A stretch of DNA of 64,000 nucleotides from contig NC_021172.1 in assembly GCF_000230975.2 (NCBI RefSeq), positions 3,472,001-3,536,000 on the forward strand. The letters are read 5' to 3'. The translations under genes were made by a program, and so were the position numbers. Numbering within the stretch: position 1 is the first letter of the stretch; each line of letters begins with the position of its first letter. Shown in pieces: positions 25,472 to 57,639 of the stretch. The stretch comes from Hyphomicrobium denitrificans 1NES1 (lineage in GTDB: Bacteria; Pseudomonadota; Alphaproteobacteria; Rhizobiales; Hyphomicrobiaceae). The notes beneath the pieces are model-generated. The model searched no databases and was not told where the DNA came from. It was given only the letters and a program-made list of their open reading frames with translations.

Positions 25472-25645
25472 TTAAATCAACCTCAACGCCTTCAAGCTGG
25501 CGTGGCCGTTGCGGCCGACAATGATGTGGTCGTGAACGGTGATGCCAAGGGGTTTCGCGGCATCGACGATCTGCTTCGTCACGTCGATATCGGCGCGCGA
25601 GGGTGTCGGGTCGCCCGACGGGTGATTGTGGATCAATATACTCGA
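25472..25645 (-). pseudogene. radC: 3' fragment of chromosomal radC
   Basis: The last ~53 codons of RadC, a JAB-domain protein: [19 protein letters not shown] with the [11 protein letters not shown] metal-site motif, then [27 protein letters not shown], the normal RadC C terminus. Upstream (higher coordinates) the RadC frame stops matching at about 25,645 and continues into an unrelated lead ([10 protein letters not shown]) for a total frame of 66 codons (25,472-25,672). The N-terminal ~170 residues are absent from the window, so radC was split by the island; the missing part should lie beyond the island's right end. Confidence 0.85.
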
Positions 25646-25765
25646 AGACCAGTTTCTGTTATTTTTCAACATATTGCCGACACGCTAAAATCAACAGGGG
25701 TCGTTAATTGGTATATGTGGTGCGTGACTGGTCGTGATGAATAATTCCTGATCATGTAGGATCTT
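25621..25765. repeat. Left attachment-region direct repeat (attL-like)
   Basis: This segment, spanning the radC/island junction, recurs at 32,145-32,290 with about 75-80% identity by eye. The shared core TTGTGGAYCAATATACTC includes radC codons (reverse strand, ILxHN). Further shared blocks are TTATTTTTCAACATATTGC, TGGTATATGT and CCGTGACTGGTCGTGA (GCGTGACTGGTCGTGA here). It is best read as the attachment side of an integrase-type element that targets radC. Confidence 0.7.
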
Positions 25766-26098
25766 AGATGATATTCCAACGTCACGCCGGATCACGGATT
25801 CCGCATCATAAGTCTCGTCATATCGCATCGCCTGGGACTTAAATAGCCAGCTATGACGATTCGGATCAACCGACCGAAGCGTATTCCTCCAGCGACAAAG
25901 ATCGGGAGGGTCTGCAAACCAGAGATTGAATTTGTCCCAGCGATCGAGTTCGCCGACGGGATAGAGGACCGCCTTGCCGATCTTGATGAAGGACGGTCCG
26001 ATACGCATGGCTCTCTAATTTCGTAGCGTGCCTTCGCTGACCTCGCCACGGTAGCAGGTAATGACTTCTTCGAGTGTTAGGTAGACGGGGGACGGCAC
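25691..26098 (-). pseudogene. AlpA/excisionase-like gene, copy 1, interrupted by an amber codon
   Basis: Reading from GTG at 26,098 (preceded by AGGAGA) the frame encodes a helix-turn-helix of the AlpA/MerR-like excisionase type: VYLTLEEVITCYRGEVSEGTLRN, then TAG at 26,015-26,017, then RAMRIGPSFIKIGKAVLYPVGELDRWDKFN in the same frame. In copies 2 and 3 the codon at this place is TGG (Trp28). A single G-to-A change therefore killed this copy. Related proteins bind attachment sites and control element excision. The frame stays open to 25,691 but diverges from the other copies after about residue 55. Confidence 0.8.
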
Positions 26099-26119
26099 AG
26101 GGTCTCCTGAGGACAAGCG

Positions 26120-26144
26120 ATTGTGCAGCAGCCTGTTGCACAAT
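26120..26144. promoter_or_regulatory. Conserved inverted repeat upstream of AlpA copy 1
   Basis: ATTGTGCA at 26,120-26,127 and TGCACAAT at 26,137-26,144 form perfect 8-base arms around a nine-base spacer, ~22 bases upstream of the AlpA start. The identical arms and spacer length are kept upstream of copy 2 (32,641-32,665). A candidate operator or recombination site. Confidence 0.6.
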
Positions 26145-26225
26145 TGGGTGCGCCTTTGGGAGGGCGTCGAGCAGCTTTGCGAGGGGGGCGATTTTGGCGC
26201 TCTCCAAGACAGCCGCTCGGCGAGC

Positions 26226-26741
26226 TCAGCGGCCACCCGCATAAAGATTGCGGCAAGCCTCGTCTTCGGCTTCCTGCAGTTTCCGGACATAGGCGACGAG
26301 GCGCTCGTCGGCGTCGAGCGCATAGAACCTCGAGGGTCGGGGGCCGACCGTCAAGCCCACCGCAATTGGCCGCGCGTTCGTATCTACGAGGAACAGAACG
26401 TCACCGCCCGGCGAAATCGGCCGGTGCTTTGGGTTATCATGCAGTGGGGTTACGTCGACCAATTGACCCGTCGGTGTATGCCAAACTGCATGGTGCACGG
26501 CGATGAGGTAGCCGGGCCCGGGAATGTCCTCCACCACGCGATAATGGAACATCCAGCCGAACAGCGCGCGGCCACCCTTCTGTTCCGCTTGACAGACGGC
26601 GTTCTCAAAACATCGGGTCGGCGTGGCCCAAGCTTCCGGTCGATGAACGGCAAGACCAAGTGGTTCCCGGCTAATGGTGCGAGCGAACGCTTCCAGATGC
26701 GGCTGAACATCGAAGGCATTTGGGGCGGCGGATTCAGGCAC
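26226..26741 (-). CDS. Unknown protein with a cysteine-peptidase-like Cys/His pattern
   Basis: A 171-residue protein. RCFENAVCQAEQKGGRALFGWMFHYR is followed by AVHHAVWHTPTGQLVDVTPLHDN. The order of a Cys at a helix start (C-x-E-N), then His on a strand (HHAVWH), then Asp (LVDVTP) resembles papain-like/transglutaminase-like folds, and similar short proteins are known with SEC-C domains. This is pattern inference only. Third gene of the minus-strand operon 28,845-26,226; it starts 41 bases after the stop of the preceding gene. Confidence 0.65.
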   Translation of the reverse strand: MPESAAPNAFDVQPHLEAFARTISREPLGLAVHRPEAWATPTRCFENAVCQAEQKGGRALFGWMFHYRVVEDIPGPGYLIAVHHAVWHTPTGQLVDVTPLHDNPKHRPISPGGDVLFLVDTNARPIAVGLTVGPRPSRFYALDADERLVAYVRKLQEAEDEACRNLYAGGR

Positions 26742-26782
26742 GAGAAGGTCCTATTGGAAGGGTAGGTACAGCGCAGTCTGTC

Positions 26783-28096
26783 CTACAGGTACGCGATGCC
26801 TTGATTGAGAAGGTTGGCCAACACGTCCGCCCGCGAGCGGGCCGGGTGCACAGCCAGCGCGACCAACGCGCGTGCCACACGTCGCGCGAGATTACGCGCC
26901 AGGACGCGCTGCGGCGTCGAGATTTTTTGTAGTCCAGACCGGCCGTGGACGAACGCGCTTCGCAGCTCGAACAGGTCCTTATAGTCCTGCACTGCCTTCG
27001 CATCTGTGATCGCCGCACCGATCCGGGCAGCAACACGTTCGGTCGCCGACAGCTTTGGATGCGGGTCGGGCTTAGGCCGTAGCTGGCGCTTGTGATCGCT
27101 TTCCAGGCCGAGCGCCGCCTCGATCGCGGTCATGTGAGCCATCACCTCGTCGATGCCGTCGGCGAGGAAGGCCCGGACAAGGAAATGCACGACCGGCGTC
27201 TCAAAGAGTGGCGTCGAGCGCGCTGCCTGCAACTCGGTCCAAGCTGCGTCGGTGAAGAGCTGCAGCTCCGTCTTGGCGCTGTCGTCGAGCGGCAAGGTGC
27301 TCGGCCGCTCCAGCTCGATCTCTTCACCCCAATGGTCTTCGACGATCCAGGGCTCAAGCGTGAGGCTGTCTGGATTGGGTGGCCGCGCCGGCCGGACGAA
27401 GAGGTCTTCGTCTAACGTGTAGATCCACGGCACGCGAAAGCCGCGCCAGTCGACCTCCTGCATTGTCGACCATTCCTCCCATCGGGCCAGCAGTAGGAAA
27501 AAGAGTGCGCCTTCAACGGCTGGAGGGAACCGACCGAGATGGGGTTCGATTTCGCCGAAGTCCCGGCGCATATCGACGAACATAAACGGGGTCGCGCGCG
27601 CCTCGGGTCTCGGATCGACCTCGATTTCTTCCTCAACGACCAACCAATGGAACTGAGCGAGGCGCTTGGACTCGAACAACAGCGACGGGAAGTTGCGCGC
27701 GAGCCTCGGCGCATCGAACAGCTTCTCCAATTCCTCGGCGGTGAACTGGGCAACTCGCGCGCCGCCGAACGTCATCGGCGGCAAATCGTCGGCCAGATCG
27801 AGCGGGCAGATGTGTCGGCGCACCGTCATCACACGCGTGTAGGCTGCGTCGAGCGCGGCCGCGGCCGTGAGCAAGTCGAGCGCGCGCCCCGATTGGTCGA
27901 GCGGCAGCTCGCATGGCAGGCCGAGTGACCTGAGCGCGCTGCTCAGCGCGAACGTGGCCTTGCCGCGACCATAGCGCCGATCGCAGAGCTCGCTCAGTGC
28001 GACGAAGGCCGGCGCTGACAGCAGATTGTCCGGGCCCGGCCGCGGAATGCGCCATAGGGTGGCCAGGGCGTCGAGGAACTGCTGATCCGCCGCCAT
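26783..28096 (-). CDS. Large unknown protein with C-terminal HEPN-like (Apea-like) domain
   Basis: A 437-residue soluble protein with no recognised N-terminal domain. The last ~130 residues (ETPVVHFLVRAFLADGIDEVMAHMTAIEAALGLES..KDLFELRSAFVHGRSGL) resemble the Apea-like HEPN fold: long helices with ELRSAFVHGR carrying an RX4H motif, the catalytic pair of HEPN ribonucleases. The Glu-rich ALEAALG-like helix also fits. It starts two bases after the upstream gene, which also has an Arg-His motif. A role in defence or toxin-type RNA cleavage is plausible but unproven. Confidence 0.72.
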   Translation of the reverse strand: MAADQQFLDALATLWRIPRPGPDNLLSAPAFVALSELCDRRYGRGKATFALSSALRSLGLPCELPLDQSGRALDLLTAAAALDAAYTRVMTVRRHICPLDLADDLPPMTFGGARVAQFTAEELEKLFDAPRLARNFPSLLFESKRLAQFHWLVVEEEIEVDPRPEARATPFMFVDMRRDFGEIEPHLGRFPPAVEGALFFLLLARWEEWSTMQEVDWRGFRVPWIYTLDEDLFVRPARPPNPDSLTLEPWIVEDHWGEEIELERPSTLPLDDSAKTELQLFTDAAWTELQAARSTPLFETPVVHFLVRAFLADGIDEVMAHMTAIEAALGLESDHKRQLRPKPDPHPKLSATERVAARIGAAITDAKAVQDYKDLFELRSAFVHGRSGLQKISTPQRVLARNLARRVARALVALAVHPARSRADVLANLLNQGIAYL

Positions 28097-28098
28097 CG

Positions 28099-28845
28099 CT
28101 AGGCGCCGCCATCGGGCGTCGCCTGTGGCCGCCAGTTCCGCTCTGTACGTTCTCGCGCGAGCTTGGCTTCGAGGCTCGGATGCTTCCGCTCGATGCTCTC
28201 GTTGTAGATATACTCCGCATCGTCCCAGAAGATGGCGACCGCCGCGACGAACTCCCTGAGCCGTTCGACGGGCACGTCCATCAGCGCGATGGGCGGCAGC
28301 CCGGAGTCACGCGGCTGATCCTCGAACGGCATCGGCGGATAAACCCGCCACAGCTCGGGACAGCGCATGGCCACCTCAATGGCTGACGACCCGTCGCCAT
28401 GCCGGCAGGCGTTACCGAGGAGTTGCAGCGTGTCCAAGTCGGCGAAGCTTGGGAAGGCGTTGAGCCGGATGCCGCGCAGTTCCAGAAAAAGCTCGCAGAG
28501 CTGCGTCCAGTTCGCCTTTGTCACCTGCGCAGCCAAAGCGTTGCTGGGCATAAGCTCGCTCGCGCATCCGCGCAGATAACCGCGGAGTTGGCGCTCCCAG
28601 ATGGACTGGATTGCAAGGCCGAACGCCATTTTCGTCTCTTTGAGCACATCCTCCATGTCGGCCTGGGCGAAGGCGTCGCCAGGATCGCCACTGCGACCCA
28701 GTGCGGAAATTTTATCCTCGAGGGCGCAGATCGCGGGGGCGATCACGTCGTCGAAGAATGATTGCACGGTGATTCCGTGCTTCGATGCCGCCACGTCGGC
28801 GTAGCAGTTCTTCCAGCGGAACACCTTCATGCGACTTGAAGACAT
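28099..28845 (-). CDS. Unknown protein, first gene of HEPN-like operon
   Basis: A 248-residue helical protein (MKVFRWKNCYADVAASKHGITVQSFFDDVIAPAICALEDKI..). The centre LDTLQLLGNACRHGDGSSA has a C-R-H-G-D-G segment similar to helix ends in HEPN and MAE_28990/MAE_18760-like families. No enzymatic domain is recognised. It is followed two bases later by the 437-residue gene, showing tight coupling. Start could be ATG 28,845 (MSSSRMKV) or the Met six residues in. Confidence 0.65.
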   Translation of the reverse strand: MSSSRMKVFRWKNCYADVAASKHGITVQSFFDDVIAPAICALEDKISALGRSGDPGDAFAQADMEDVLKETKMAFGLAIQSIWERQLRGYLRGCASELMPSNALAAQVTKANWTQLCELFLELRGIRLNAFPSFADLDTLQLLGNACRHGDGSSAIEVAMRCPELWRVYPPMPFEDQPRDSGLPPIALMDVPVERLREFVAAVAIFWDDAEYIYNESIERKHPSLEAKLARERTERNWRPQATPDGGA

Positions 28846-28866
28846 GAGCTTGTACTCGCTGACTGG

Positions 28867-28953
28867 CTATTTTGTCAGCCATTGGCCATAAGCTTCGACA
28901 TCGATCATCGGAACGGTCCCGCTGAACTGAAGCTGCGAAATCAGCTTGAACAG
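28867..28953 (-). pseudogene. C-terminal remnant cut by the IS element
   Basis: A minus-strand frame [28 protein letters not shown] ending at TAG (28,867-28,869), cut off upstream by the IS3-family left end. Some of its 3' DNA (CGCTGACTGGCT and AGCCATT) recurs at 32,870-32,895 in the next element. The parent gene is not recognised. Confidence 0.35.
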
Positions 28954-30219
28954 TGAGGTGGTCCCGGGAAATCGGACAGGAGGTTAAGGTGGGTTCGACC
29001 GAGAGGAAGGACGGACCCGATGACGGGCAAGCGGAAGCGGTATTCGGCTGAGTTCAAGGCGAAGGTTGCGCTGGAGGCGCTGCGGGGCGAGCGGACGATT
29101 GGGGAACTGGGGGCCAAGCATGGCCTTCATCCGACGATGATCGCCGCGTGGAAGCGGCAGGCGGTGGAGGGTATGGCCGCGGTGTTTGCCGGCAAGGCCG
29201 GGGCGGCGGAAGTTGCCCGCGAGAGCGAAATCGACAAGCTCCACGCCAAGATCGGCCAGTTGGTGGTGGAGCGAGATTTTTTATCGAAGGCCTCCGGTCG
29301 TTGAGCCTGGATCGGAGGCGTCAGATGATCGATCCGCAGCACCCGCGGCTCTCGATCCAGCGGCAATGCCGGCTGGTGTCGATCAGCCGTTCGGCGTTCT
29401 ACTACCGCCCGGCAGGCGAGACGCCGCTGAACCTGGAGCTGATGCGCCGGCTCGATGCCCAGTTCCTGGAGGCGCCGTGGTACGGCTCGCGCCAGATGGC
29501 ACGCTGCCTGCGCCGGCAGGGTTACATGGTCGGCCGCAAGCGGGTGCGGCGGCTCATGGCCAAGATGGGCCTGGTGCCGATCTACCAAGCCCCGCGCACG
29601 ACGGTGCCGCACCCCGAGCACAGGACCTATAAGTACCTGCTGCGCGATCTGGTGATCGAGCGGCCCAACCAGGTCTGGTGCGCCGACATCACCTATATCC
29701 CGATGCGGCGCGGCTTCCTGTATCTGGTGGCGGTAATGGACTGGGCGGCGCGGAAGGTGCTGAGCTGGCGGCTCTCCAACACCATGGAGGCGGACTTCTG
29801 CATTGAGGCCCTCGAGGAGGCGCTTGCCCGCCACGGCGCGCCGGAGATCTTCAACACCGACCAGGGCAGCCAGTTCACCTCGCCCCGGTTCGTCGAGGTG
29901 GTGCAGGCTGCCGGCGCCCGCGTCTCGATGGATGGGCGCGGTCGATGGATGGACAATGTCTTCATCGAGCGGCTGTGGCGCAGCCTCAAATACGAATGCG
30001 TCTACCTGCACGCCTTCGAGACCGGTTCCGAGCTACGGGCAGGCCTCGCCCGCTGGATCGGATATTACAACACCGAGAGGCCCCACTCGGCGCTCGGCGG
30101 CAGGACCCCCGACGAGGCCTATGACCCGGCACCCGGCGACACCAGATTGGCGGCATAAGACAGACCTGAATCCACCTTAGCCAAGCCGCCAAACTGTCCA
30201 AATGAAGGGGACCACCTCA
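28954..30219 (+). mobile_element. IS3-family insertion sequence, 1266 bp
   Basis: The ends are TGAGGTGGTCCC (28,954-28,965) and its exact complement GGGACCACCTCA (30,208-30,219). Inward, further matching blocks GGACAG and TAAGGTGG lie within the imperfect inverted repeat. Inside are orfA and orfB with a -1 frameshift window. The flanks (CAG on the left, CGC on the right) show no target duplication, so either a deletion followed insertion or the duplication has been lost. It has truncated the exonuclease I gene on its right. Confidence 0.92.
29020..30158 (+). CDS. IS3-family transposase OrfAB (programmed -1 frameshift)
   Basis: OrfA is 29,020-29,304 (94 residues): MTGKRKRYSAEFKAKVALEAL helix-turn-helix plus a leucine-zipper-like tail. 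OrfB (usable from about 29,280 to 30,158) is the DDE integrase: WCADITYIP (first Asp), FNTDQGSQFT (second Asp), and WMDNVFIERLWRSLKYE (Glu). OrfB is in the -1 frame relative to OrfA, and the overlap holds the canonical slippery heptamer TTTTTTA at 29,277-29,283, in the T TTT TTA register. Both frames are intact, so the element may still be active. Confidence 0.92.
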
Positions 30220-30861
30220 CGCTTCGCAGCGATGACGGACGATGAGCTTCGAACTGAACTGGCTCAGAAGCCCTGTCCCGTTCGCCGGCTTCGGATCAAC
30301 GCAGCGCCAACATTGACGGCTCTCTACGACGCGCCAGAGGTGATGCTGGACGGCGTTGATATCGATGCGATTGAAGCGCGAGCGCGCCGGGTGAAGGATA
30401 ATCCGGCGCTCTGCTCCCGGCTTGTCTTGGCTTACACTTCAACGCGCGAACCCCGCACGCCTTCACGGCATGCCGAGGAGCGCCTCTATGACGGATTTCC
30501 TGGTCCGCAAGATGAAGCCCGCATGGTCGAGTTCCACGATGCGGATTGGGGAGACAGATTATCGATTATTCAAAATCTCGATGACGAGCGCTTGCGGTTT
30601 TTTGGCCTTCGTTTGCTCTACTTCGAGGCGCGTTCGGTTCTACCAGAAGCTCTCCGACTTGAGCTTGAACATACCCTAAGTGGTCGCTTGGTTGATGTTG
30701 ACGCCGGTGGCTTAACTCTCGAACAGGCCCTGCGCGAGATCGACGAAATGCCAAGCGACGATGCATCGGATGCGGGAGGACTCCTGGCGGACTACCGGAC
30801 ATATCTTGTCGGTCGGATGACGCGAGTCACCGACTTCCGGGCGAAGCAGTTCGCCATCTAG
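30220..30861 (+). pseudogene. 3' part of an exonuclease I (sbcB-like) gene
   Basis: About 213 codons that match the C-terminal part of ExoI: PCPVRRLRINAAPTLTALYD, HAEERLYDGFPGPQDEARMVEFH, and LRFFGLRLLYFEARSVLPEAL, comparable to the ExoI segments around xAQLYNGFF and YRARNFP. The N-terminal DEDD exonuclease domain is missing; the frame runs directly out of the IS right end. The remaining piece lacks all catalytic acids. Identification is by remembered motif order and is moderately sure. Confidence 0.65.
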
Positions 30862-30903
30862 ATACGCTGATGGCGCGGCCGGCTAGCGCGCGAGGGAAGA
30901 GAG

Positions 30904-31548
30904 ATGGCTGCATCGTTTAGCTTCGTCAAAAAGGTTGCGCCAAAATCAATTGATGCGATGGCCATCGCGGAAGTAGTCGATCGGATCGAGACCTTGAACC
31001 AAGGCATCGCCAAGTTCTGGTCAAAGAGCGACGGCTGGGCTCCTGTTGTCGCCGCCGGCCTGCTCGGAAAATCACGGCTCGATTGGCAAGCATCATTGTC
31101 GGGCTCGCTTAGGCTCTGGATGCGCGAGCCATCCAACGCGCTCACGCCGGCGGAACTCATCCTGGCCTGGGCCAATCTGGGAAGCCTCGTCGAAGGCACG
31201 ATCAAGACGCTTCTGTCAGTTTGGTACGAAACCTATAAGGCCGACATCGACAATCTCAAGAAGGCGAACGCTTACGACAACGCAAAGCAGATGGCACACG
31301 CCCCGGACGGTCTCGGGCTGGAGAAGCTGCGCAACTATTGCAAAACGAAAGAGCTGCTCGGCGCCGAAGGCGACGCGCTTGTCGAACTCGTGCAGCAGCG
31401 TCGAAACGCTATCCATGCATTCAAAGACCGACCGATTGGTGACGGGATCGAATTTCAGAAGGCCGTGCGCAGCTATCTCGCACTCCTTCGGACGATCAAC
31501 GGCAGACTTCCATATCCGGATGCGATGTATGAACCGCACGAGCACTAG
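30904..31548 (+). CDS. HEPN-like protein (RX4H), first gene of the element-end pair
   Basis: A 214-residue helical protein. The final helices ELVQQRRNAIHAFKDRPIGDGIEFQKAVRSYLALLRTINGRLPYP carry R-R-N-A-I-H, an RX4H motif in the place typical of HEPN ribonuclease domains. The ATG at 30,904 follows GGGAAGAGAG. The next gene begins 8 bases after its stop. The 3' end of this gene plus the 5' end of the next recur, decayed, at 38,815-39,000, so the pair is a unit carried by related elements. Function is inferred: possible toxin/defence RNase, perhaps neutralised by its partner. Confidence 0.7.
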   Translation: MAASFSFVKKVAPKSIDAMAIAEVVDRIETLNQGIAKFWSKSDGWAPVVAAGLLGKSRLDWQASLSGSLRLWMREPSNALTPAELILAWANLGSLVEGTIKTLLSVWYETYKADIDNLKKANAYDNAKQMAHAPDGLGLEKLRNYCKTKELLGAEGDALVELVQQRRNAIHAFKDRPIGDGIEFQKAVRSYLALLRTINGRLPYPDAMYEPHEH

Positions 31549-31556
31549 GTGAATTT

Positions 31557-32108
31557 TTGCGAGATCTGAGAGACCTAACGCCGCCTGAATTGCTCGTGAT
31601 GCACGCTGCGGTATCGGAGGAACTCCGGCGGCGCGGCGTCATCCGCAGCTCGAACAATCCAGTCGGCGATCTTGCCGAGCATCTGTTTTGTCGCGCCTTC
31701 GGTTGGAAGCAGGCGCCCAACTCAATGCGCGATGCCGACGCCACGGATGCCGCCGAAGTGCGATATCAGATCAAGGGGCGGCGCTTGACGTCGCACAACA
31801 ACTCGCGGCAGCTCGGGGCGCTTCGCGATTTGCCGGCGCAGGCCTTTGATGTGCTTGCCGCTGTTCTGTTCCAGGAAGACTACCGAGTTCTTAGGGCTGC
31901 GCTGATCCCGCACGTCCGCGTCGTGGATCTGGCAAAGCGTGTCGAGCGAACCAACAGTTGGCGGTTCCTGCTTCGTGATGCCATCTGGTCGGTGCCTGGC
32001 GTTCGCGATGTAACCGCCGACCTCCAACGGGCAGAGGCCTCCTGGGCATTGGCATTGACCGAGGGCCCGAAAGCATCAAATTCACGCTCGATCACTGACC
32101 AGGAATGA
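31557..32108 (+). CDS. PD-(D/E)XK nuclease-like protein (DUF6998 type)
   Basis: A 183-residue protein. NPVGDLAEHLFCRAFGW supplies a conserved Glu; ATDAAEVRYQIKGRRL gives the D/E-x-Q-x-K strand of PD-(D/E)XK folds; AFDVLAAVLFQEDYRVLRAALIPHVRV is a typical core strand-turn. I place it with DUF6998-like proteins from memory. It starts with TTG at 31,557; in the decayed copy near 38,960 the aligned codon is GTG, which supports this start. It lies 8 bases after the HEPN-like gene. Fragments of this gene recur at 35,225-35,370 and 38,960-39,000. Confidence 0.7.
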   Translation: MRDLRDLTPPELLVMHAAVSEELRRRGVIRSSNNPVGDLAEHLFCRAFGWKQAPNSMRDADATDAAEVRYQIKGRRLTSHNNSRQLGALRDLPAQAFDVLAAVLFQEDYRVLRAALIPHVRVVDLAKRVERTNSWRFLLRDAIWSVPGVRDVTADLQRAEASWALALTEGPKASNSRSITDQE

Positions 32109-32144
32109 CGGTCCGTGATTGAGCGTGAAGATGGGTACCGAGAA

Positions 32145-32290
32145 GGATAGTTGTGGACCAATATACTCAAAGACGGCTTTCTTTTATTTTTCAACATATT
32201 GCTGGCACGTTGAAATCTACGGGGGCCGCTAACTGGTATATGTAATCCGTGACTGGTCGTGAAAAATAATCCCTGAGCACGCACGCACTT
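32145..32290. repeat. Internal attachment-region repeat (copy 2)
   Basis: Diverged copy of 25,621-25,765. Starting at GTTGTGGACCAATATACTC it keeps the radC-like codons on the reverse strand as ILVHNYPS (HNHPS in radC), then TTATTTTTCAACATATTGC and TGGTATATGT. It marks the joint between element 1 and element 2. 32,109-32,391 holds no other gene. Confidence 0.7.
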
Positions 32291-32391
32291 TAATGATACT
32301 CCAAAGTCATGCGGGATCACGGATTCCGCATCAAGACTCACTGTCATATAGCGTCGTCCGGGACTTGAATAGCCAGCCACCGCGATCCGGT

Positions 32392-32622
32392 TCAAGCGAT
32401 CGACGCGTCGTCCTCCAGTGGCCGGGATCGGGGAAGTTCTGCAAACCACCAGGTCGGATTGGACCCCCAACATTCGCTTGCGGGATAGAGGATTGCCTTG
32501 CCAATCTTGATGAACGATGACCCGACGCGCATGGCTCTCCACTTTCGGAGCGTACCTTCGCTGATCTTGCTGCGGTGGCAAGTAATGACTTTTTCGAGCG
32601 TTAGATACGCGGGTGACGGCAC
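32392..32622 (-). CDS. AlpA/excisionase-like helix-turn-helix protein, copy 2
   Basis: A 76-residue protein from GTG at 32,622 (AGGAGA ribosome-binding site four bases upstream): VPSPAYLTLEKVITCHRSKISEGTLRKW (Trp28 present), then MRVGSSFIKIGKAILYP, the wing typical of AlpA/phage-type excisionases. Equal in length to copy 3. Likely controls excision of element 2 by binding its attachment region, 100 bases away. Confidence 0.75.
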   Translation of the reverse strand: MPSPAYLTLEKVITCHRSKISEGTLRKWRAMRVGSSFIKIGKAILYPASECWGSNPTWWFAELPRSRPLEDDASIA

Positions 32623-32640
32623 GAGGTCTCCTGACAAGCG

Positions 32641-32665
32641 ATTGTGCACCAGCCTGTTGCACAAT
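32641..32665. promoter_or_regulatory. Conserved inverted repeat upstream of AlpA copy 2
   Basis: ATTGTGCA (32,641-32,648) and TGCACAAT (32,658-32,665) with a nine-base spacer, the same arms and spacing as at 26,120-26,144, and at the same distance from the AlpA start. Conservation across two otherwise diverged copies supports function. Confidence 0.6.
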
Positions 32666-32705
32666 TGGATGCGCCTTTGGGAGATCTTTAAAATTGCCTG
32701 CCGGG

Positions 32706-33029: not shown

Positions 33030-33500
33030 TCAAACAGCGCGGGAATGCTTGGAAGCCGTACGCGGCAGATATTTGTCCAATCCCCAAAGCAAGAGCCCAA
33101 ACAGGAGATGCGGGACGAACGATGCCGGAATGAGCTTCGCGTTGATGTTGATGCCCGCAAAGCCCCATCCGACAACTGGGAAGAAGACAAGGAGGATCAA
33201 CAACCAGAGCGCTCCGGCGAGCGCCAATGCCGTCTTGATGTTGCGTCGCTGGAAATAGCGCACGAAGATCACCGACCAGAACGTCACGTACGCGATGTGG
33301 AATAGCAAACCAACCGGCAACGGTAGCGGTCGGCGCAGCAAGGTCTCCGCAAAAGCGAGCGAAGGCGGCTCGGGAAAAGGCGATACTCCAGCGGAGGCCA
33401 GTGCGAGCATCACGATCGCGGTGGCTACGGCGACCGCGACGCCGATACCGGCGGCTTTGGGCCATGAACGGCCACCACTCTCTGCGTCAATCGTCATCAC
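33030..33500 (-). CDS. Membrane protein at the end of a MerR-controlled operon
   Basis: A 156-residue protein with four membrane spans (about residues 15-37, 55-75, 88-108 and 118-138). GININAKLIPASFVPHLLFGLLLWGLDKYL is a conserved-looking end. No metal-binding Cys. It is the third gene after the transport-like genes at 33,534 and 33,905 and is presumably co-transcribed. Function unknown. Confidence 0.7.
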   Translation of the reverse strand: MMTIDAESGGRSWPKAAGIGVAVAVATAIVMLALASAGVSPFPEPPSLAFAETLLRRPLPLPVGLLFHIAYVTFWSVIFVRYFQRRNIKTALALAGALWLLILLVFFPVVGWGFAGININAKLIPASFVPHLLFGLLLWGLDKYLPRTASKHSRAV

Positions 33501-33533
33501 CTTCTCCTCGAACCATCGAGCGTGCTCGGCGGG

Positions 33534-33908
33534 TTAGCGTGCTGTGAGCGCCGCGACAGCGAAGGGCGCGATCGTTGGCCAGAAATAAGCAACGGCCAGC
33601 ATCGCTGACGCTGTGAGCATCATCAGCACGGTCGCCGCCGCAGGCCTCTTTCGAGTTCGCAACGACTGCCGCGCGACCCAGATCCACGCGGCCGCGACGA
33701 GCACAACAGCAACGATGATCGATCCTTCATAAATGCTCGCCAGCCAGGCCAATGCACTACCGGTGACGGCTAGTGCGGCGGCGGGCAAAGCGAATGGCAG
33801 AATGCAACACACAGCGCAGGCGAGGGCACCCGTCGCGGCGCCGCCAGCAGCGGATGCGGCGATTGCGGCGCCACGGCTGTCGACCCCAGATTGTGCTGTT
33901 TCTGTCAT
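33534..33908 (-). CDS. MerT/MerC-like metal membrane protein
   Basis: A 124-residue protein with three membrane spans. ALACAVCCILPFALPAAAL carries a C-x-x-C-C in the first span, as in MerT-type mercury uptake proteins, where such a cysteine pair moves the ion across the membrane. No MerP or MerA is found nearby, so the actual metal is uncertain. ATG at 33,908 overlaps the stop of the upstream gene as ATGA. Confidence 0.7.
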   Translation of the reverse strand: MTETAQSGVDSRGAAIAASAAGGAATGALACAVCCILPFALPAAALAVTGSALAWLASIYEGSIIVAVVLVAAAWIWVARQSLRTRKRPAAATVLMMLTASAMLAVAYFWPTIAPFAVAALTAR

Positions 33909-34270
33909 TGTGCTGTCACCGTCGTGCATCCGCAGCCGCCACTCGACTTCGATCCCGTCAGGAAGGGATTGAATAGGGCGTCAAGGGCGTCGTGGGCCGC
34001 TTCCGGCGCTGTGATGGCAAGCGTCAAGCTCTTCTCGCGTTCGTTCAGCTCGAGGGCGAGAAACGCGCAGCATTCCTGCTCGCGGCGAACCATCTCGCGA
34101 ATGCGAGCGCCGGCACGCGGATCGTACGTGAGGACTAAGCGCGCGCCCTCGCGCCGGACGCTTTGCAGCGCAGCTCGGTTAAGCTCCGCAATCCAGACGA
34201 GGCGTTCCTGATACGCGCCCGTGCCCAACGTGCAGGCAATCGGTATTACCGACGATTCAGGAACTTTCAT
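33905..34270 (-). CDS. Cysteine-containing cytosolic protein of the MerR-controlled operon
   Basis: A 121-residue soluble protein. PIACTLG near the N terminus, RREQECCAFLALEL in the middle, and GGCGCTTVTAQ at the C terminus give six or more Cys residues, likely thiol ligands. I recall similar small proteins next to mercury-type genes, but no function is established. First gene of the operon driven by the promoter at 34,306-34,336. Confidence 0.65.
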   Translation of the reverse strand: MKVPESSVIPIACTLGTGAYQERLVWIAELNRAALQSVRREGARLVLTYDPRAGARIREMVRREQECCAFLALELNEREKSLTLAITAPEAAHDALDALFNPFLTGSKSSGGCGCTTVTAQ

Positions 34271-34305
34271 ACTTGCTCCTCCTTCTGGCGATCGGCTATC
34301 ACCAC

Positions 34306-34336
34306 AAGATAGAACTTCAAGTAACTTGAGGTTCAA
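34306..34336 (-). promoter_or_regulatory. MerR-type promoter with 19-bp spacer and SoxR-like dyad
   Basis: On the minus strand, -35 TTGAAC (34,336-34,331) and -10 TATCTT (34,311-34,306) are separated by exactly 19 bp, the over-long spacer of MerR-family-activated promoters. Inside the spacer is a dyad, CTCAAGT-T-ACTTGAAG. It reads toward the 34,270 operon and lies just upstream of the divergent merR gene. Confidence 0.8.
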
Positions 34337-34364
34337 GCCCCTTTTTCTAGGAGCCGCTTGTGTC

Positions 34365-34808
34365 ATGAAGATCGGCGAACTTGCGCGACGCACCCGCACG
34401 AATGCGCCCACCATCCGCTATTACGAAGAAATCGGGCTGCTGCCTGTCCCAGCGCGCCGCGACGGTGGTCAGCGAAGTTATGGCGACAGCGATAACAGGC
34501 GGTTGACCTTCATCAGGCAATGTCGCGCGTTCGGCTTTCCGATCGAACAGGTTCGCTCACTTGTCGCCTTAACGGAGGATCAAGATCGATCGTGCACGGA
34601 GGCGCGGTCCATCGCGCTGGTTCATCTCGAGGCGGTGCGTGAGAAGTTGGCGCAATTGAAAGGCCTTGAACGCAACTTGGCCGATTTCATTAAACGCTGC
34701 GACGCGATCTGCTTCGGCGGTCCCGGACCGGAATGTGTGATTCTCAAAGACATGGCGGAACCGATGGCCGACGGCAAATGCTCGGTAGGCGGAAGGAAGT
34801 GCCGGTGA
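34365..34808 (+). CDS. MerR-family regulator of the mercury-type operon
   Basis: A 147-residue regulator. [26 protein letters not shown] is the MerR winged helix; a coiled-coil dimerisation helix follows ([22 protein letters not shown]). Cys in [24 protein letters not shown] and KCSVGGRKC could bind metal. The dyad promoter at 34,306-34,336 lies between it and the divergent operon. Its stop overlaps the ynfA start as GTGA, so ynfA is translated with it. Confidence 0.88.
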
Positions 34809-35137
34809 CCAAAACCGCAATCGTCTATGTCGCCGCCGCGTTCTTTGAGATAGGTGGGTGCTTCAGTTTCTGGATTTGGATTCGCGAGGGCAGATCGGGC
34901 TGGTGGCTAGCGCCTGGCGTCATTTCGCTGATGCTCTTTGCTTGGCTTCTCACTCAAGTTGATGCTTCAGCCGCCGGGCGTGCTTATGCGGCCTATGGCG
35001 GCGTCTACATCTTTGCCTCGCTGCTGTGGCTATGGACTGTCGAACACGTTCGGCCGGATCGGTGGGATGTTCTCGGGTCCGCGATTTGCATCGTGGGCGC
35101 GGCGGTCATCCTGTTTGGGCCGCGCCTCCCCGCCTAG
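34805..35137 (+). CDS. ynfA: YnfA (UPF0060) membrane protein
   Basis: A 110-residue protein with four membrane spans. [29 protein letters not shown] and [34 protein letters not shown] are the UPF0060 signatures. The family resembles small multidrug resistance (EmrE-like) exporters. GTG at 34,805 overlaps the merR stop; normal family length supports it. Confidence 0.9.
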
Positions 35138-35224
35138 TCATCCTGCCGGTCGGCTGGCGCCCTCGCGAGGATCATTCCCGTCGTCCCTTGAAGTCCAAGC
35201 CGCTTGAAGTGCCAGATCAAAGCT

Positions 35225-35370
35225 AACGTCGCACAACAACTCGCGGCTGCTCGGGGTACCTCGCGATTTGCCGGCGTAGGCCTTTGATGTACTTGCCGGT
35301 GTTCTATTCCAGGAAGACTACCGAGTTCTTAAGGGTTGCGCTGATCCCGCACGTCCGCGTTGCGGATTAC
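35225..35370 (+). pseudogene. Decayed fragment of the PD-(D/E)XK-like gene
   Basis: DNA from ACGTCGCACAACAACTCGCGG to CACGTCCGCGTTG matches 31,790-31,925 of the intact gene at roughly 90% with single-base insertions and substitutions. It covers the middle third only, and no upstream HEPN-like part is found beside it. Left over from an earlier or rearranged element. Confidence 0.75.
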
Positions 35371-35519
35371 CAGGACGGCGGCCGAAATACGACGTGCCGG
35401 CGATCTCGGTTGTTATTTCTCGGTCAACGCCGAGATGCTTGCGAACGAAAAGCGGGCCGTCGCGAACCGCGCATTCCCGTTAGGTCGCGTCCTCACAGAG
35501 ACCCGATGGCCCGTTCACG

Positions 35520-35770
35520 CGAACTGGTGCTCGCCCATCGGAGCCCGGTGATGTCTGGCGAGCGGTCGAAGGCTTGGCGAGGCTGCTGGTTTGGAGGCGG
35601 TCGATGTTGGTTGCCGGATCGGCGCCAACCTTAAAACCCTGTTGGACGAAGTCTCACAGCGGGCGATGCTTGAGTCGGCAGTAGTCCGAGGCTTCCAGGA
35701 CATGATCTCAGACAAGCTGACAGCGGCTCTGCGTGCTCGCTTCGCACCGGAGCACGCCGCGTCAAACTAA
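35520..35770 (+). pseudogene. Frameshifted unknown gene remnant
   Basis: The frame NLKTLLDEVSQRAMLESAVVRGFQDMISDKLTAALRARFAPEHAASN ends in TAA at 35,768-35,770 and looks like a real helical C terminus. Upstream, matching-looking text continues only in other frames (GERSKAWRGCW, VEGLARLLV), implying at least one frameshift. No family recognised. Nothing else is seen in 35,371-35,787. Confidence 0.35.
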
Positions 35771-35787
35771 TATCGAAAGCACAAGCC

Positions 35788-35900: not shown

Positions 35901-36054
35901 ACGGCCGCGCATTTGGCACATGCAAGAGTATCGGTCCTTCCGGTAGCAGAAGTCGGCTCATCTTCTGATGCGAGACGACGACCTGAACGACGGCGGAGAG
36001 TGCGAACCCGAGGATCAGCGGCCAGAGTATTTTCCATCCCATGGCAAGCGCCAT
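35893..36054 (-). pseudogene. 5' fragment of a permease (ArsP/YraQ-like) gene
   Basis: From ATG at 36,054: MALAMGWKILWPLILGFALSAVVQVVVSHQKMSRLLL matches the first membrane span of the DUF318/ArsP-type permeases that often accompany metal ATPases. After ~38 codons the similarity ends, and a chance tail runs to TGA at 35,893. The gene is truncated by the joint with the small Met-rich ORF. Confidence 0.55.
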
Positions 36055-36126
36055 TTCCAGTGAGCGTATGACAGCATCGATTATCCGTCGCTCCCGTGCT
36101 TCTACTTATCCGAGGATCTTTGAAAC

Positions 36127-36531
36127 CTATACAGGCGAGAGTGCCTCAATGATCCGGCATTCGGCGATGGTGCCGCAACTACACTGGCCGATGATGCTGT
36201 CGAGCTCTCTCCGCAATGCTGTCAGGTCAGCGATCTTGCGATCAACGTCGGAAAGGTGCTGACGGGCGATCGCATCCACTGCCCCGCAGGATCGATTTTT
36301 CTGGTCTGAAAGGCTCAGGAGCTCACGGACTTCATCGATCGTGAAACCCAGATCCCTGGCCCGGCGGACAAAGCTCAGTCGTCCGACCTGATCGTCGGAA
36401 TAGACGCGGTAATTGCTGCTTGTGCGCGCCGGCGGCGGTAGGAGGCCGATCCGCTCATAGTAGCGGATCGTCTCGATTTTCGTCTCTGTGAGCTTGCCGA
36501 GCTCACCGATCGTCACAAACTCTGGAGCCAT
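36127..36531 (-). CDS. MerR-family heavy-metal regulator (CadR/ZntR/PbrR type)
   Basis: A 134-residue regulator. MAPEFVTIGELGKLTETKIETIRYYERIGLLPPPART is the DNA-binding part; LSLSDQKNRSCGAVDAIARQHL and the C-terminal GQCSCGTIAECRII provide the three Cys positions expected for Cd/Pb/Zn sensing in this subfamily. Divergent from the P-type ATPase it should control; their shared 67-base gap holds the operator. ATG at 36,531 replaces a longer frame that would overlap the operator. Confidence 0.9.
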   Translation of the reverse strand: MAPEFVTIGELGKLTETKIETIRYYERIGLLPPPARTSSNYRVYSDDQVGRLSFVRRARDLGFTIDEVRELLSLSDQKNRSCGAVDAIARQHLSDVDRKIADLTALRRELDSIIGQCSCGTIAECRIIEALSPV

Positions 36532-36536
36532 GGCCC

Positions 36537-36567
36537 TTGACCCTGTAGTTGCTACAGGGTCCATGTG
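36537..36567 (+). promoter_or_regulatory. MerR operator/promoter of the cadA-like gene
   Basis: TTGACC (36,537-36,542) as -35 and a perfect 9-3-9 dyad ACCCTGTAG-TTG-CTACAGGGT (36,540-36,560). This is nearly the published CadR/PbrR/ZntR operator form. The -10 would fall near 36,562-36,568 (CATGTG), which is weak, as usual for promoters needing MerR distortion. Confidence 0.8.
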
Positions 36568-36597
36568 GGAGGTTGCGTCGCAAAAGTCGAGGTGGCC

Positions 36598-38766
36598 ATG
36601 CTTGCGGAACCGGAAATCGTTGGGGATCCGCTCAAGATGCGCGTCGAGGGCATGGACTGCGGCAGTTGCGCCCTGAAGATCGAGAACGCGTTAAAGCGCC
36701 TTCCCGGGGTCAGCGACATCGCTATGACCTACGCTACCGAAACCCTGGTGTTCCGTCTCGACAAAGATCGCACCAAGCGCGCCGTTGTCGAGGATAAGAT
36801 CCGAGCGCTCGGCTTCACGCCACTGCCAGCGGCCGGGACCAGGATGCTTCGCTCGGAGCAAGCGAGCGACGCAGACGATGGTAGGGATCGGCTCTGGTGG
36901 CGCACGCGCAAAGGCGTGTTTGTCCTCGGCACGGGGGCACTCCTCGCGATTGCCTATGCAATCTCCATCGCGGTTCCCAGCGCTTCCTATTGGGCTTATC
37001 TCGGCGCGGCCATTGTTGGGCTTGTCCCGATCGCGCGCCGGGCGGTCACCGGCGCCTTGTCGGGCACGCCCTTTGGCATCGAGACTTTGATGACCGTTGC
37101 AGGGATCGGCGCCGTCTCGATCGGCGCGGCCGAGGAAGCAGCAGTGGTCGTTTTCCTGTTCGCTGTCGGCGAGGTTCTTGAAAGCATCGCCGCAGGCCGG
37201 GCTCGGGCTGGCATCAAGGCATTGATGAACTTGGTGCCTCGTACGGCGCTCGTCGAACAGGCAAGCGAGACGCGCGAGATACCTGCCGAAAAGCTCGCTG
37301 TCGGCGACATCGCCCTCGTCCGTCCCGGTGATCGCATTCCGTCCGACGGCGAGATCATCGAAGGGAATTCCGACATCGACGAGGCGCCGGTGACTGGAGA
37401 ATCGGTCCCCATCGCCAAGGCGGCCGGCGATGCCGTGTTTGCTGGCAGCATTAACACCAGCAGCAGCCTTCGCGTCCGTATCTCACGAACGGCCGCTGAC
37501 AACACGATCGCACGCATCATCCATCTGGTCGAGGAGGCGCAGGGTTCGAAGGCCCCCACCGCGCGGTTCATCGATCGTTTTGCGGCTTATTACACGCCGG
37601 CGGCCATGGTGGTCTCGGCTCTCATCATCCTGGCGCCACCGCTACTGTTTGCGGCTGAATGGTCGACCTGGATTTACCGTGGGCTCGCGACGCTGCTCAT
37701 TGCCTGCCCGTGCGCGCTCGTCATCTCAACGCCGGCAGCAATTGCCTCCGGTCTCGCGGCGGGCGCCCGGCGCGGCCTGCTGATCAAGGGCGGGGCCGCG
37801 CTCGAAACTCTCGGAAGGGTCGTGACGGTCGCCTTTGACAAGACCGGCACCCTAACCGTCGGCAGACCGGAAATCACCGACATCGTCGCGGTCGATGGGG
37901 AAGAGGCGGAGCTTCTCGCGAAGGCTGCGGCTGTGGAGCGCGGTTCCAGTCATCCGCTCGGGCTCGCCATCATCTCGGCGGCGGAAAAGAAAGGCCTTTC
38001 CATCCCACAGGCTTTCGGTGGTAGCACAGCGGTTCCAGGCAAAGCGGTGACGGCACGGCTAAAGAGTGGATTCGTGTCAGTCGGTTCGCCCCGCTATGCC
38101 GCAGAGGTGGTCTCGATTCCGGTCACCATCGACAGCCGCATCGATGCTCTAGAGGCCGAGGGCAAGACCGTCGTTGTCGTGCTCGCTTCCAAGCGCATTG
38201 CCGGCCTGATTGCGCTGAGGGACGAGCCGCGCCGAGACGCCGCCCAAGCCGTGACCGCGCTCAAGAGGATCGGCGTCCGCGTGCTGATCCTGACCGGCGA
38301 CAATGAGCGCACAGGAAACGCGATCGCTGATGGACTTGGTCTTGAGGCCAAGACCGAGCTGCTACCTGACGCGAAGCTCGCCGAGATTGCCGCGCTAAAA
38401 GAACGCGGTCCGGTCGCCATGATCGGTGACGGTATCAACGACGCGCCGGCGCTCGCAGCCGCGTCCGTCGGTATCGCCATGGGCGGCGGCACCGATGTCG
38501 CCTTGGAGACGGCCGACGTGGCGTTGCTCAAGGATCGTGTCGGCGGTGTGGTCGAGCTCATCCGGCTATCGAAGGCGACGCTTTCCAACATTTGGCAGAA
38601 CATCGCGCTGGCGCTTTGCCTCAAGGGTGTTTTCCTCGCGACTACCCTGTTCGGGGTGACGTCGCTCTGGATGGCGATCCTCGCGGATACGGGTGCGACT
38701 GTGCTCGTAACGGCGAACGCGCTGCGGTTGCTGCGCTTTCACTCAGAGGCGTCTGCCGGCTCCTAA
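36598..38766 (+). CDS. cadA: Heavy-metal translocating P1B-type ATPase (CadA/ZntA-like)
   Basis: A 722-residue exporter of divalent soft metals (Cd, Zn, Pb). An N-terminal HMA domain with GMDCGSC (about residue 20), eight membrane spans, the intramembrane CPC motif (IACPCALVIS), phosphorylation DKTGTLT, SHPLG (HP motif), and hinge MIGDGINDAPALAAA. CPC with HMA supports the Cd/Zn/Pb subgroup, in line with the adjacent CadR-like regulator. ATG at 36,598 follows GAGGTGG; an upstream GTG at 36,565 overlaps the operator and is rejected. Confidence 0.94.
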   Translation: MLAEPEIVGDPLKMRVEGMDCGSCALKIENALKRLPGVSDIAMTYATETLVFRLDKDRTKRAVVEDKIRALGFTPLPAAGTRMLRSEQASDADDGRDRLWWRTRKGVFVLGTGALLAIAYAISIAVPSASYWAYLGAAIVGLVPIARRAVTGALSGTPFGIETLMTVAGIGAVSIGAAEEAAVVVFLFAVGEVLESIAAGRARAGIKALMNLVPRTALVEQASETREIPAEKLAVGDIALVRPGDRIPSDGEIIEGNSDIDEAPVTGESVPIAKAAGDAVFAGSINTSSSLRVRISRTAADNTIARIIHLVEEAQGSKAPTARFIDRFAAYYTPAAMVVSALIILAPPLLFAAEWSTWIYRGLATLLIACPCALVISTPAAIASGLAAGARRGLLIKGGAALETLGRVVTVAFDKTGTLTVGRPEITDIVAVDGEEAELLAKAAAVERGSSHPLGLAIISAAEKKGLSIPQAFGGSTAVPGKAVTARLKSGFVSVGSPRYAAEVVSIPVTIDSRIDALEAEGKTVVVVLASKRIAGLIALRDEPRRDAAQAVTALKRIGVRVLILTGDNERTGNAIADGLGLEAKTELLPDAKLAEIAALKERGPVAMIGDGINDAPALAAASVGIAMGGGTDVALETADVALLKDRVGGVVELIRLSKATLSNIWQNIALALCLKGVFLATTLFGVTSLWMAILADTGATVLVTANALRLLRFHSEASAGS

Positions 38767-38814
38767 GAGAACCTCTGCAACAGCGGGGGCATGTAATGTC
38801 GCCATGTGCGACAG

Positions 38815-39036
38815 CGCCTTCAAAGACCGACCGATTGGTGACGGATCGAATTTTAAAAAGCCGCGCGCGACCATCTCGCGCTCCTTGGACGATCAACGGC
38901 AGGCTTCCATATCCGGATGCGATTATGTGCCGCGCGAACGCTAGACGAACTTGTGCGAGATCTGAGAGACCGGACGCGGCCGGAGCTGCTCCTGATGACG
39001 TTTTTATATCCGCAGAAGTCACGCGATGATTGAGCG
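38815..39036 (+). pseudogene. Decayed HEPN/PD-(D/E)XK gene-pair remnant
   Basis: DNA matching the last ~130 bases of the HEPN-like gene (31,419-31,548) and the first ~45 of the nuclease-like gene, joined as in the intact locus: CTTCAAAGACCGACCGATTGGTGACG, then CGATCAACGGCAG, TTCCATATCCGGATGCGAT, and GCGAGATCTGAGAGACC. Single-base indels destroy both frames. TGATTGAGCGTGA (39,025-39,037) matches the sequence just after the intact nuclease gene. Nothing else is seen in 38,767-39,167. Confidence 0.8.
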
Positions 39037-39167
39037 TGATTACGTTTTCATCGCATCCTCATTCAGCGCTAATGCGCACGCCGCCTCAGCTCTTCGAAGA
39101 TCGGCGGTCACATCTCGAACACCGGCACCGACCGGACGCGTCGCGAAGCGATAAGCGAGCGTGAGCC

Positions 39168-39398
39168 TCACTCTTGTTCACGGTCAGTCACATCAAGTTT
39201 GCGCGAGGCACGACAGATCACGAGATTCTTTTTATCCCATTCGTCGAGCCCTTGTAGGGGGTACAGCACCGACTTTCCCACTTTAACGAAAGGCGGCCCC
39301 ACGCGCTGAGCACGCCAGTTTCTGAGGGTTCCCACAGAGATCTCGCCGCGGTAGCGTTCCGCTACTTCGTCAGCGGTAAGAAACTTGATATCAGCCAT
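39168..39398 (-). CDS. AlpA/excisionase-like helix-turn-helix protein, copy 3
   Basis: A 76-residue protein MADIKFLTADEVAERYRGEISVGTLRNWRAQRVGPPFVKVGKSVLYPLQGLDEWDKKN, the best-preserved copy. The helix-turn-helix (TADEVAERYRGEISVGTLRNW) and following wing match phage-type AlpA/excisionase proteins. It heads the third element, which carries the RND and conjugation genes. ATG at 39,398. Confidence 0.85.
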   Translation of the reverse strand: MADIKFLTADEVAERYRGEISVGTLRNWRAQRVGPPFVKVGKSVLYPLQGLDEWDKKNLVICRASRKLDVTDREQE

Positions 39399-57625: not shown

Positions 57626-57639
57626 GTTTCGCCTCCGCC

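Follow-up and report, generated by a model that had tools for sequence, protein, structure and literature searches.

The 64,000-nucleotide stretch of Hyphomicrobium denitrificans 1NES1 analyzed here (the window; C1:3472001-3536000 of a 3.81-Mb single-contig genome) contains the left part of a tandem array of elements that interrupts the gene radC. We consider it highly probable (roughly 0.88) that this array was built by site-specific recombination at one radC attachment (att) site, and that it consists of two elements resembling cis-mobilizable elements (CIMEs), named E1 and E2, followed by an integrative and conjugative element (ICE) of 69 kb. The layout is radC C-terminal half, E1 (25,626-32,151), E2 (32,151 to ~39,150), ICE and radC N-terminal half. 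The array lies mainly beyond the window, and positions marked ext continue the window numbering through the DNA up to the radC N-half. Since the same 7-bp core, TTGTGGA, occurs at 25,626, 32,151-32,157 and ext 108,278-108,284, the array measures 82,652 bp in total, with 6,525 bp for E1 and 76,127 bp for E2 (~7 kb) plus the ICE. An earlier note, made from the letters of this DNA alone, had proposed serial insertion of related elements at one site, and this proposal holds up because the core recurs, radC is split there and uninterrupted in relatives, and the ends of E1 and E2 are alike while their interiors are not. The target gene and its core are placed as follows:

25,472-25,672, minus strand: C-terminal half of radC (Pfam RadC, 1.1e-21; profile positions 63-118, at 25,487-25,654)
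25,626-25,632: attL core TTGTGGA, the radC His-Asn codons on the minus strand; the E1/E2 similarity starts here
C1:3580265-3580489, 82.6 kb away and outside the window: N-terminal half of radC (profile positions 2-76; own-genome search)

The own-genome search returned two RadC matches, namely these C- and N-halves, whose profile segments overlap around the core only. On the radC strand the core encodes the His-Asn of an HNHP stretch, and the gene is split exactly at this point. Because the N-half in split copies ends at or just past these codons, radC is presumably inactivated in them. A single uninterrupted RadC match was evident in 19 of the 21 other genomes of the genus, the exceptions being G435, uninformative with its radC split across two contig ends, and G443, which gave no RadC match; the 12 uninterrupted sites that were inspected share an identical 10-residue reading through the core. 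A tRNA gene as insertion target was ruled out, since none lies within the window.

Repetition inside the array is far above chance. Self-comparison of the window yielded four relevant matches, all between parts of E1 and parts of E2 or of the E2/ICE joint (joint 3). The longest pairs 25,626-26,162 with 32,151-32,683 at 79.4% identity over 540 columns (E 2.6e-128), both copies starting at the core, which bears out the attachment-type repeats noticed earlier. The other three connect right-end parts of E1 with 35,226-35,367 (92% identity), 38,816-38,997 (84%) and, in inverted orientation, 39,149-39,057 (75%). Similarity between 25 and 40 kb hence reaches beyond the AlpA domain and includes right-end pieces, and ten mononucleotide shuffles of E2 gave zero matches to E1. 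Apart from the left 530 bp at 79% and the three right-end pieces, E1 and E2 share no blastn match, and zero blastn matches were obtained between E1 and the ICE. Tandem duplication of a single element, with later divergence and cargo replacement, would explain why E1 and E2 are adjacent, with left ends 79% identical and right-end pieces in common. We nonetheless set it aside as very improbable because the two interiors share no blastn match; moreover, identity varies by part (79, 84, 92 and 75%), and the right part of E1 is closer to an element of another genome, G480 (90% over 1.9 kb), than its left end is to E2. E1 is composed as follows:

25,691-26,098, minus strand: AlpA-like pseudogene with an in-frame stop at 26,015-26,017 (open reading frame, ORF, and translation)
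26,120-26,144, no strand: 25-bp dyad upstream of the AlpA-like gene, found also at 32,641 (E2) and in related arrays
26,226-28,845, minus strand: three cargo genes (171, 437 and 248 aa), no family match
28,948-30,225, plus strand: insertion of the IS3 family, bounded by imperfect terminal repeats of 32 bp (75%; NF033516 IS3, 3.2e-11)
30,202-30,861, plus strand: C-terminal part of an ExoI/SbcB-like exonuclease gene (Pfam Exonuc_X-T_C, 2.3e-10)
30,904-31,548, plus strand: HEPN-type protein, 214 aa, with an invariant RRN..H region (alignment, model pLDDT 88)
31,557-32,108, plus strand: predicted BisI-family PD-QXK nuclease (Foldseek, profile, PADLOC)
32,081-32,157: right end of E1, with the inverted arm motif TTCACGCTCGATCAC / GTGATTGAGCGTGAA and then the core at 32,151-32,157

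A CIME is an element that has lost its integration and transfer genes and keeps its att sites, and its accretion with ICEs and integrative and mobilizable elements (IMEs) is established, according to the portion of PMC5704250 consulted. E1 keeps both attachment sites, with cores at 25,626 and 32,151 and the arm motif, and scanning of its ORFs revealed no integrase, relaxase or type IV secretion system (T4SS) family; comparison with the array's own integrase, TrbE, TraG and relaxase also gave no match. No integrase, relaxase or transfer gene was found in E1 or E2, so neither would be classed as an IME. The three cargo genes of E1 had no match in Pfam, PADLOC or NCBIfam; by eye, stretches of two of them look HEPN-like. 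The segment 30,220-32,161 is 90% identical over 1.9 kb to element Eb of G480, the match stopping at the core, and across the IS3 from it there is another match (28,865-28,953, 88%). Between the two, G480 has ~5.3 kb, in whose place E1 has the IS3. Since these matches flank the IS3 and ~5.3 kb is missing between them, we infer that E1 looks like an Eb-type element shortened by an IS3-linked deletion. The IS3 sits where that DNA has been lost, and the ExoI-like gene, whose full-length relative in G480 (L010) has 470 aa, lacks its N-terminal part at the same place.

E2 and joint 3 comprise the following features:

32,392-32,622, minus strand: AlpA-like gene of E2, called by similarity to the third AlpA of the array; dyad at 32,641-32,665 upstream
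33,030-35,137: cargo, comprising a DUF6789-like protein that scores under the family cut-off, two small proteins with no match, a MerR regulator and YnfA/UPF0060 (Pfam)
35,226-35,367, plus strand: middle fragment of the nuclease gene (matching 31,788-31,928)
35,369-35,668, plus strand: qatD fragment, 89% identical to the ICE's qatD at ext 106,363-106,662
36,127-38,766: cargo, comprising a MerR regulator (minus strand) and a heavy-metal P-type ATPase (plus strand; Pfam)
38,816-38,997, plus strand: remnant of the HEPN 3' end and nuclease 5' end, the decayed right end of E2 (matching 31,417-31,601)
39,057-39,149, minus strand: inverted remnant of the nuclease 3' end (matching 31,970-32,064 reversed)

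E2 has the left core at 32,151 and lacks a right one, retaining one of the two sites that a CIME keeps. Its AlpA has conserved the helix-turn-helix part, is 55% identical to the third AlpA over 42 aa and gave no Pfam match. The nuclease fragment placed earlier at 35,225 is present, but not as nuclease alone: it joins the qatD fragment within 2 bp (35,226-35,668), a chimera that appears to be a sign of recombination between right-end cargoes. Similarly, the decayed copy of the HEPN/nuclease pair expected near 38,815-39,036 exists at 38,816-38,997, with a further inverted piece at 39,149-39,057. The sequence of joint 3 (38,997-39,168) contains no att core. All three AlpA-like genes listed in the earlier note are there (25,691-26,098, 32,392-32,622 and 39,168-39,398), the first with its in-frame stop, and the HEPN and nuclease frames are open across 30,904-32,108. 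Its ordering of the elements by age, with the older ones decaying, found no support: E1 has kept the pair and has a broken AlpA gene and an IS3, whereas E2 has kept its AlpA gene and lost the pair. Nor does every joint have the pair on the left and AlpA on the right: at the first boundary the left-hand neighbour is radC instead of the pair.

The third AlpA belongs to the ICE, for which the window shows:

39,168-39,398, minus strand: intact AlpA-like gene at the left end of the ICE (Pfam HTH_17, E 1.9e-7)
39,150-64,000: part of the ICE inside the window, with metal cargo, LuxR/LuxI, TrbI and CagX/TrbG; the element runs to ext 108,278
56,900-58,435: LuxR/LuxI pair
59,606-60,937: TrbI (Pfam, 1.1e-68)
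60,775-61,923: CagX/TrbG (CagX, 2.4e-68)

Beyond the window, the ICE continues with TrbE- and TrbB-like ATPases, TraG, a relaxase, an ArdC-type protein, QatABCD and an integrase. The matched families are CagE_TrbE_VirB (4.7e-6), a T2SSE-type ATPase (1.4e-36), T4SS-DNA_transf (1.7e-102) and, for the relaxase, DUF3363 (5.9e-92), with a Relaxase match below the cut-off; the labels trbE and trbB rest in part on these family matches. QatA, QatC and QatD were identified, and QatB was placed by position. Judged by these families, the third element carries the T4SS, coupling-protein and relaxase genes that define an ICE. Its 439-aa tyrosine integrase (Phage_integrase, 2.2e-11; L008:8779-10098) adjoins the radC N-half and starts 180 bp from the right core; it stands beside attR, and the core occurs at either outer end of the array. 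At joint 3 the left core of the ICE itself is missing; it is present in G447, a genome of a different genus of the same family, where a comparable ICE of about 72 kb sits alone in radC. The order there is radC N-half, integrase (79% identity), a body mostly colinear with ours, AlpA (76% identical to the third AlpA over 66 aa) and radC C-half. Because AlpA adjoins the radC C-half in this single ICE, the third AlpA of our array is the left end of the ICE, whose far end lies outside the window. It resembles the first AlpA at the protein level only. The far end itself consists of QatABCD and the tyrosine integrase, without the HEPN/nuclease pair. A small excisionase-like ORF was also seen inside the ICE (ext 78,368-78,553; L006:14368-14553), 66-69% identical to its counterparts in G261 and G447; it had no Pfam match, the call resting on similarity between ICEs, and may be RdfS-like. 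With this ORF, the ICE would have two such genes, the terminal AlpA and an internal one.

Relatives of the ICE integrase were sought at family level (103 genomes, E up to 1e-80) and at order level (397 genomes, E up to 1e-90). They were recovered in 11 genomes besides our own, and in 9 of these 11 the integrase adjoins a truncated radC N-half. G332 has two integrases 37 kb apart in one split radC with an att-like joint between them; this locus (L127-L131) comprises two stacked integrase-bearing elements, with ORFs read as metabolic cargo, and yielded no match to trbE, traG, relaxase or AlpA. The radC C-half side was fetched for nine arrays, our own included (for G035, G282 and G310, the integrase side only), and AlpA stands between the radC C-half and the remainder in eight of the nine, with none found in G332, in agreement with the idea that AlpA marks one end. 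The distance from radC to AlpA is 7.5 kb in G261, where the intervening stretch contains what by eye looks like a serine recombinase, and 1.2 kb in G229; neither was counted as an array. G436 (L160), one of the 19 genus members with an uninterrupted RadC match, shows an AlpA-like gene beside an extra radC C-half, with a whole radC on another contig, which would fit either a mixed population or a second copy.

The integrase-less class to which E1 and E2 belong (class II) recurs in the radC arrays of two other genomes, G480 and G479, and is thus known from three genomes, two of them metagenome-assembled genomes (MAGs). Its members are E1, the decayed E2, G479 E1 and G480 Ea, Eb and Ec. In G480 (L010), all three elements lie between the radC halves on one contig: Ea has AlpA at its left end, and its right end still matches the final 45 bp of the nuclease gene; Eb has AlpA on the left and ExoI-HEPN-nuclease on the right, and no AlpA was found in Ec. 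None of the three matched the integrase at E up to 0.05, a Pfam scan of eight G480 proteins (a subset of the ORFs) revealed no integrase domain, and the best integrase match elsewhere in G480 has 28% identity. G479 (L009) shows the radC C-half and AlpA on one contig and HEPN-nuclease, AlpA, a full ICE, integrase and the radC N-half on a second; its E1 is incomplete, and its joint is coreless, like joint 3. The cargo of the class is made up of defence or metal genes. PADLOC named 9 of 10 G480 proteins tested, as a ThsB-like TIR protein, AbiEii, MkoA, MkoB, GajA, GajB, a CBASS cyclase, TRIP13 and an SbcB-like exonuclease, and two of the three G480 elements carry Gabija, CBASS, MkoA/MkoB, TIR and AbiE-type genes; the third carries an efflux operon.

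Class II elements have an end of their own. Right ends were compared across a 37-bp stretch, made up of the core and the 30 bp preceding it, in four class II rows (own E1 and G480 Ea, Eb and Ec) and eight integrase-linked rows, leaving out G479 E1, which has no core, and the decayed E2. Mean identity was 87% within class II, 69% within the integrase-linked group and 50% between groups; a nearly constant class II end is shared by the three G480 elements, which differ in cargo, and by our own E1. The exact pattern was found once among the 397 genomes of the order, in our own; right-end DNA searched in 195 relatives of G480 was found in G480 only, and in 385 genomes of the class, searched for nuclease plus right end, the end part appeared in our own only, and G1014 matched over 107 bp of the nuclease part. 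A phage or plasmid origin was rejected: viral contigs gave no exact right-end pattern, distant blastn found nothing in plasmids, and the nuclease had no phage match. In a tree of 12 AlpA sequences, an eight-row clade (support 96/98) unites the ICE AlpAs with that of G480 Ea, and the AlpAs of own E1, own E2, G479 E1 and G480 Eb fall outside it; the tree is built on a short alignment, and most of its forks stay open. With up to four substitutions allowed, the 25-bp dyad was located eight times in 13 array sequences and never in 20 mononucleotide shuffles. Four of these copies sit immediately upstream of a class II AlpA gene, two elsewhere in class II elements and two near the 3' end of an ICE integrase gene (ext 106,713, in the qatD-integrase interval, and position 70,986 of the G447 array).

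The HEPN/nuclease pair turned out to be cargo of this class rather than a general end of radC elements. The nuclease model matched NhoI by Foldseek (E 6e-17; chain 8q5n_B, target TM-score, TMt, 0.88), and Eco15I was also matched; searched against the PDB, the family profile gave two matches only at E up to 1e-3, Eco15I (7e-45) and NhoI (1.4e-31), and PADLOC assigned mREase_II (2.5e-53). E41, D61, Q71 and K73 are invariant in 24 sequences and stand at a constant offset of 8 from E49, D69, Q79 and K81, mutated in Eco15I. By fold, homology and catalytic residues, the protein is accordingly predicted to be a restriction endonuclease of the BisI family, of methylation-dependent type. The tentative HEPN label derives from the invariant RRN..H motif in the alignment and a weak fold match: the model (mean predicted local distance difference test, pLDDT, 88) had no Foldseek match below 1e-3, and PADLOC gave none for this protein. 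Both genes are common (1,067 HEPN and 1,062 nuclease proteins matched). A scan of named genomes with the HEPN alignment returned 49 loci, some incomplete, with neighbours read in 24 of the 49; the nuclease adjoins HEPN in two (L009, L010), both in genomes with a split radC. Relatives of the nuclease occur in 18 of 397 genomes of the order, our own included, and at 12 nuclease loci with flanks, from 11 other genomes, neither HEPN nor radC lies beside it. At one of these nuclease loci (L087) an AlpA-like match was seen 2.9 kb away, and at another (L088) a weak integrase match. HEPN-type genes without the nuclease were observed near flagellin genes in Bacillales, and also in Cyanobacteria (L025, L036, L037, L050 and others). 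Phages gave no nuclease match; HEPN matched four plasmids at 41-52% identity.

Among the nine radC arrays, the pair occurs in three, our own and two found via HEPN, and in none of the six found via the integrase, three of which were only partly fetched. It stands opposite AlpA in E1, G480 Eb and the decayed E2, and not in our own ICE or that of G447. That the pair marks the other end as a rule, or that AlpA and the pair flank the cargo of radC elements in general, is accordingly not supported, the third element being an ICE that ends in QatABCD and an integrase. Instead, the pair is a feature of the integrase-less class (E1, decayed E2, G479 E1 and G480 Eb, with a 45-bp remnant in Ea), at whose right end it probably serves as defence cargo. 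A role as recombination machinery was rejected because HEPN is widespread in unrelated places, and because the pair is absent from the complete-looking ends of G480 Ec and of the ICEs.

Under serial insertion at radC, the tyrosine integrase from the far end of the ICE would bind the arm motif, recombine the core and so join element ends to it, cutting radC in two; E1 and E2 would have been placed by the same type of integrase, supplied by the present ICE or by a predecessor. Further insertions at flanking cores would each leave a stacked array, as seen elsewhere with three integrase-less elements in G480, one plus an ICE in G479 and two integrase-bearing elements in G332. AlpA may act as an excision or directionality factor or as a regulator. 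Any two surviving cores should permit excision of the DNA between them, and E1 would still be excisable alone; because joint 3 has lost its core, E2 would now move only within the 76.1-kb E2-plus-ICE unit. Several facts weigh against this account. The E2/ICE joint is coreless, so the right boundary of E2 is only inferred, from the pair remnants and the third AlpA; recombination between elements has also shaped the array, as the chimera at 35.2-35.7 kb indicates; in 2 of the 11 other integrase genomes (G171 and G101) neither radC half adjoins the integrase, and a complete radC lies elsewhere; and different genomes have only a short core in common, TTGTG with one or two further bases, G332 showing TTATG at its inner joint.

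How E1 and E2 came to lack an integrase admits two main explanations. The first, to which we give an even chance, is that they are former ICEs or IMEs at radC that lost their integrase and transfer genes in place, classical CIMEs whose shared ends come from one ancestor and which have no mobility of their own. Such loss is a known route to tandem arrays, in the portion of PMC5704250 consulted; E2 is visibly decayed, E1 has its IS3 and broken AlpA gene, and in G480 Ea an AlpA of ICE type is paired with the right end typical of class II. Yet local decay alone predicts resemblance to the local ICE end, whereas the right ends of class II agree at 87% among themselves and at 50% with integrase-linked ends, and the class II AlpAs of three genomes lie outside the ICE clade (96/98, on a short alignment). 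The second explanation, somewhat less probable, makes class II a separate integrase-less lineage, excised and inserted in trans by radC integrases as satellites of the radC ICEs. The near-constant right end speaks for it, as do an own AlpA lineage in four of five elements with the dyad upstream of AlpA in the same four, the five fully read elements without integrase match (E1, E2, G480 Ea, Eb and Ec; G479 E1 is incomplete), a helper integrase in two of the three genomes (our own and G479) and the 90% identity of E1 and G480 Eb over 1.9 kb up to the core. Opposed to it are the restriction to three genomes, the lack in G480, a MAG, of a close radC-type integrase (best 28%), the ICE-like AlpA of Ea and the absence of class II right ends from the other genomes sampled (397, 195 and 385 searched).

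Within serial insertion at radC, we would tentatively extend this second explanation, at slightly longer odds, to a view of class II elements as integrase-less mobile defence islands, with AlpA under a dyad operator and a near-constant end, that radC-ICE integrases would insert, stack and export in trans; core loss, as at joint 3 and in G479, would then fuse a class II element to an ICE as permanent cargo. The array shows how one chromosomal gene gathers a conjugative element together with defence or metal islands that lack an integrase. It offers a clean system, with a short core, a constant end and one integrase family, for asking whether islands move on the integrase of another element, and it suggests a likely route by which ICEs capture defence genes, that is, stacking alongside followed by loss of the internal core.

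Streptococcal ICE/IME/CIME arrays, as presented in the consulted part of PMC5704250, are alike in having attL, an integrase-less element, an internal att site, an ICE and attR at one gene; unlike them, the array described here uses internal radC codons, and its integrase-less members have a right end of their own, mostly their own AlpA lineage, and defence or metal cargo. Within the sections consulted of PMC8627217, radC is a listed integration site for ICEs and IMEs in Mesorhizobium, and radC ICEs with ICEMlSym(R7A)-type transfer share the trb/traG/relaxase backbone, LuxR/LuxI and a small excisionase-like gene with ours. All 79 ICEs and IMEs delineated there carry a tyrosine or serine recombinase, unlike E1 and E2; tandem insertion figures in those sections merely as a possibility for ICESyms, and AlpA opposite the integrase goes unmentioned in them. 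The I23, I44 and I55 islands (PMC12595487, in part) similarly have intY at one end, alpA opposite and a short direct-repeat core, but they use another integrase in a different host, P. fluorescens SBW25, and the text consulted mentions neither radC arrays nor an integrase-less class. The nuclease shares its fold and the four catalytic positions E, D, Q and K with the BisI family members NhoI and Eco15I (PMC11347163, in part); unlike there, it lies directly behind a HEPN-type gene, with a full ExoI-like gene besides in G480, and the term HEPN has no occurrence in that paper. Integrase-less elements stacked in radC were not named in the open-licence literature searched, and, as far as that literature shows, the novelty lies in integrase-less elements of one uniform class, stacked in radC and sharing a right end peculiar to them.

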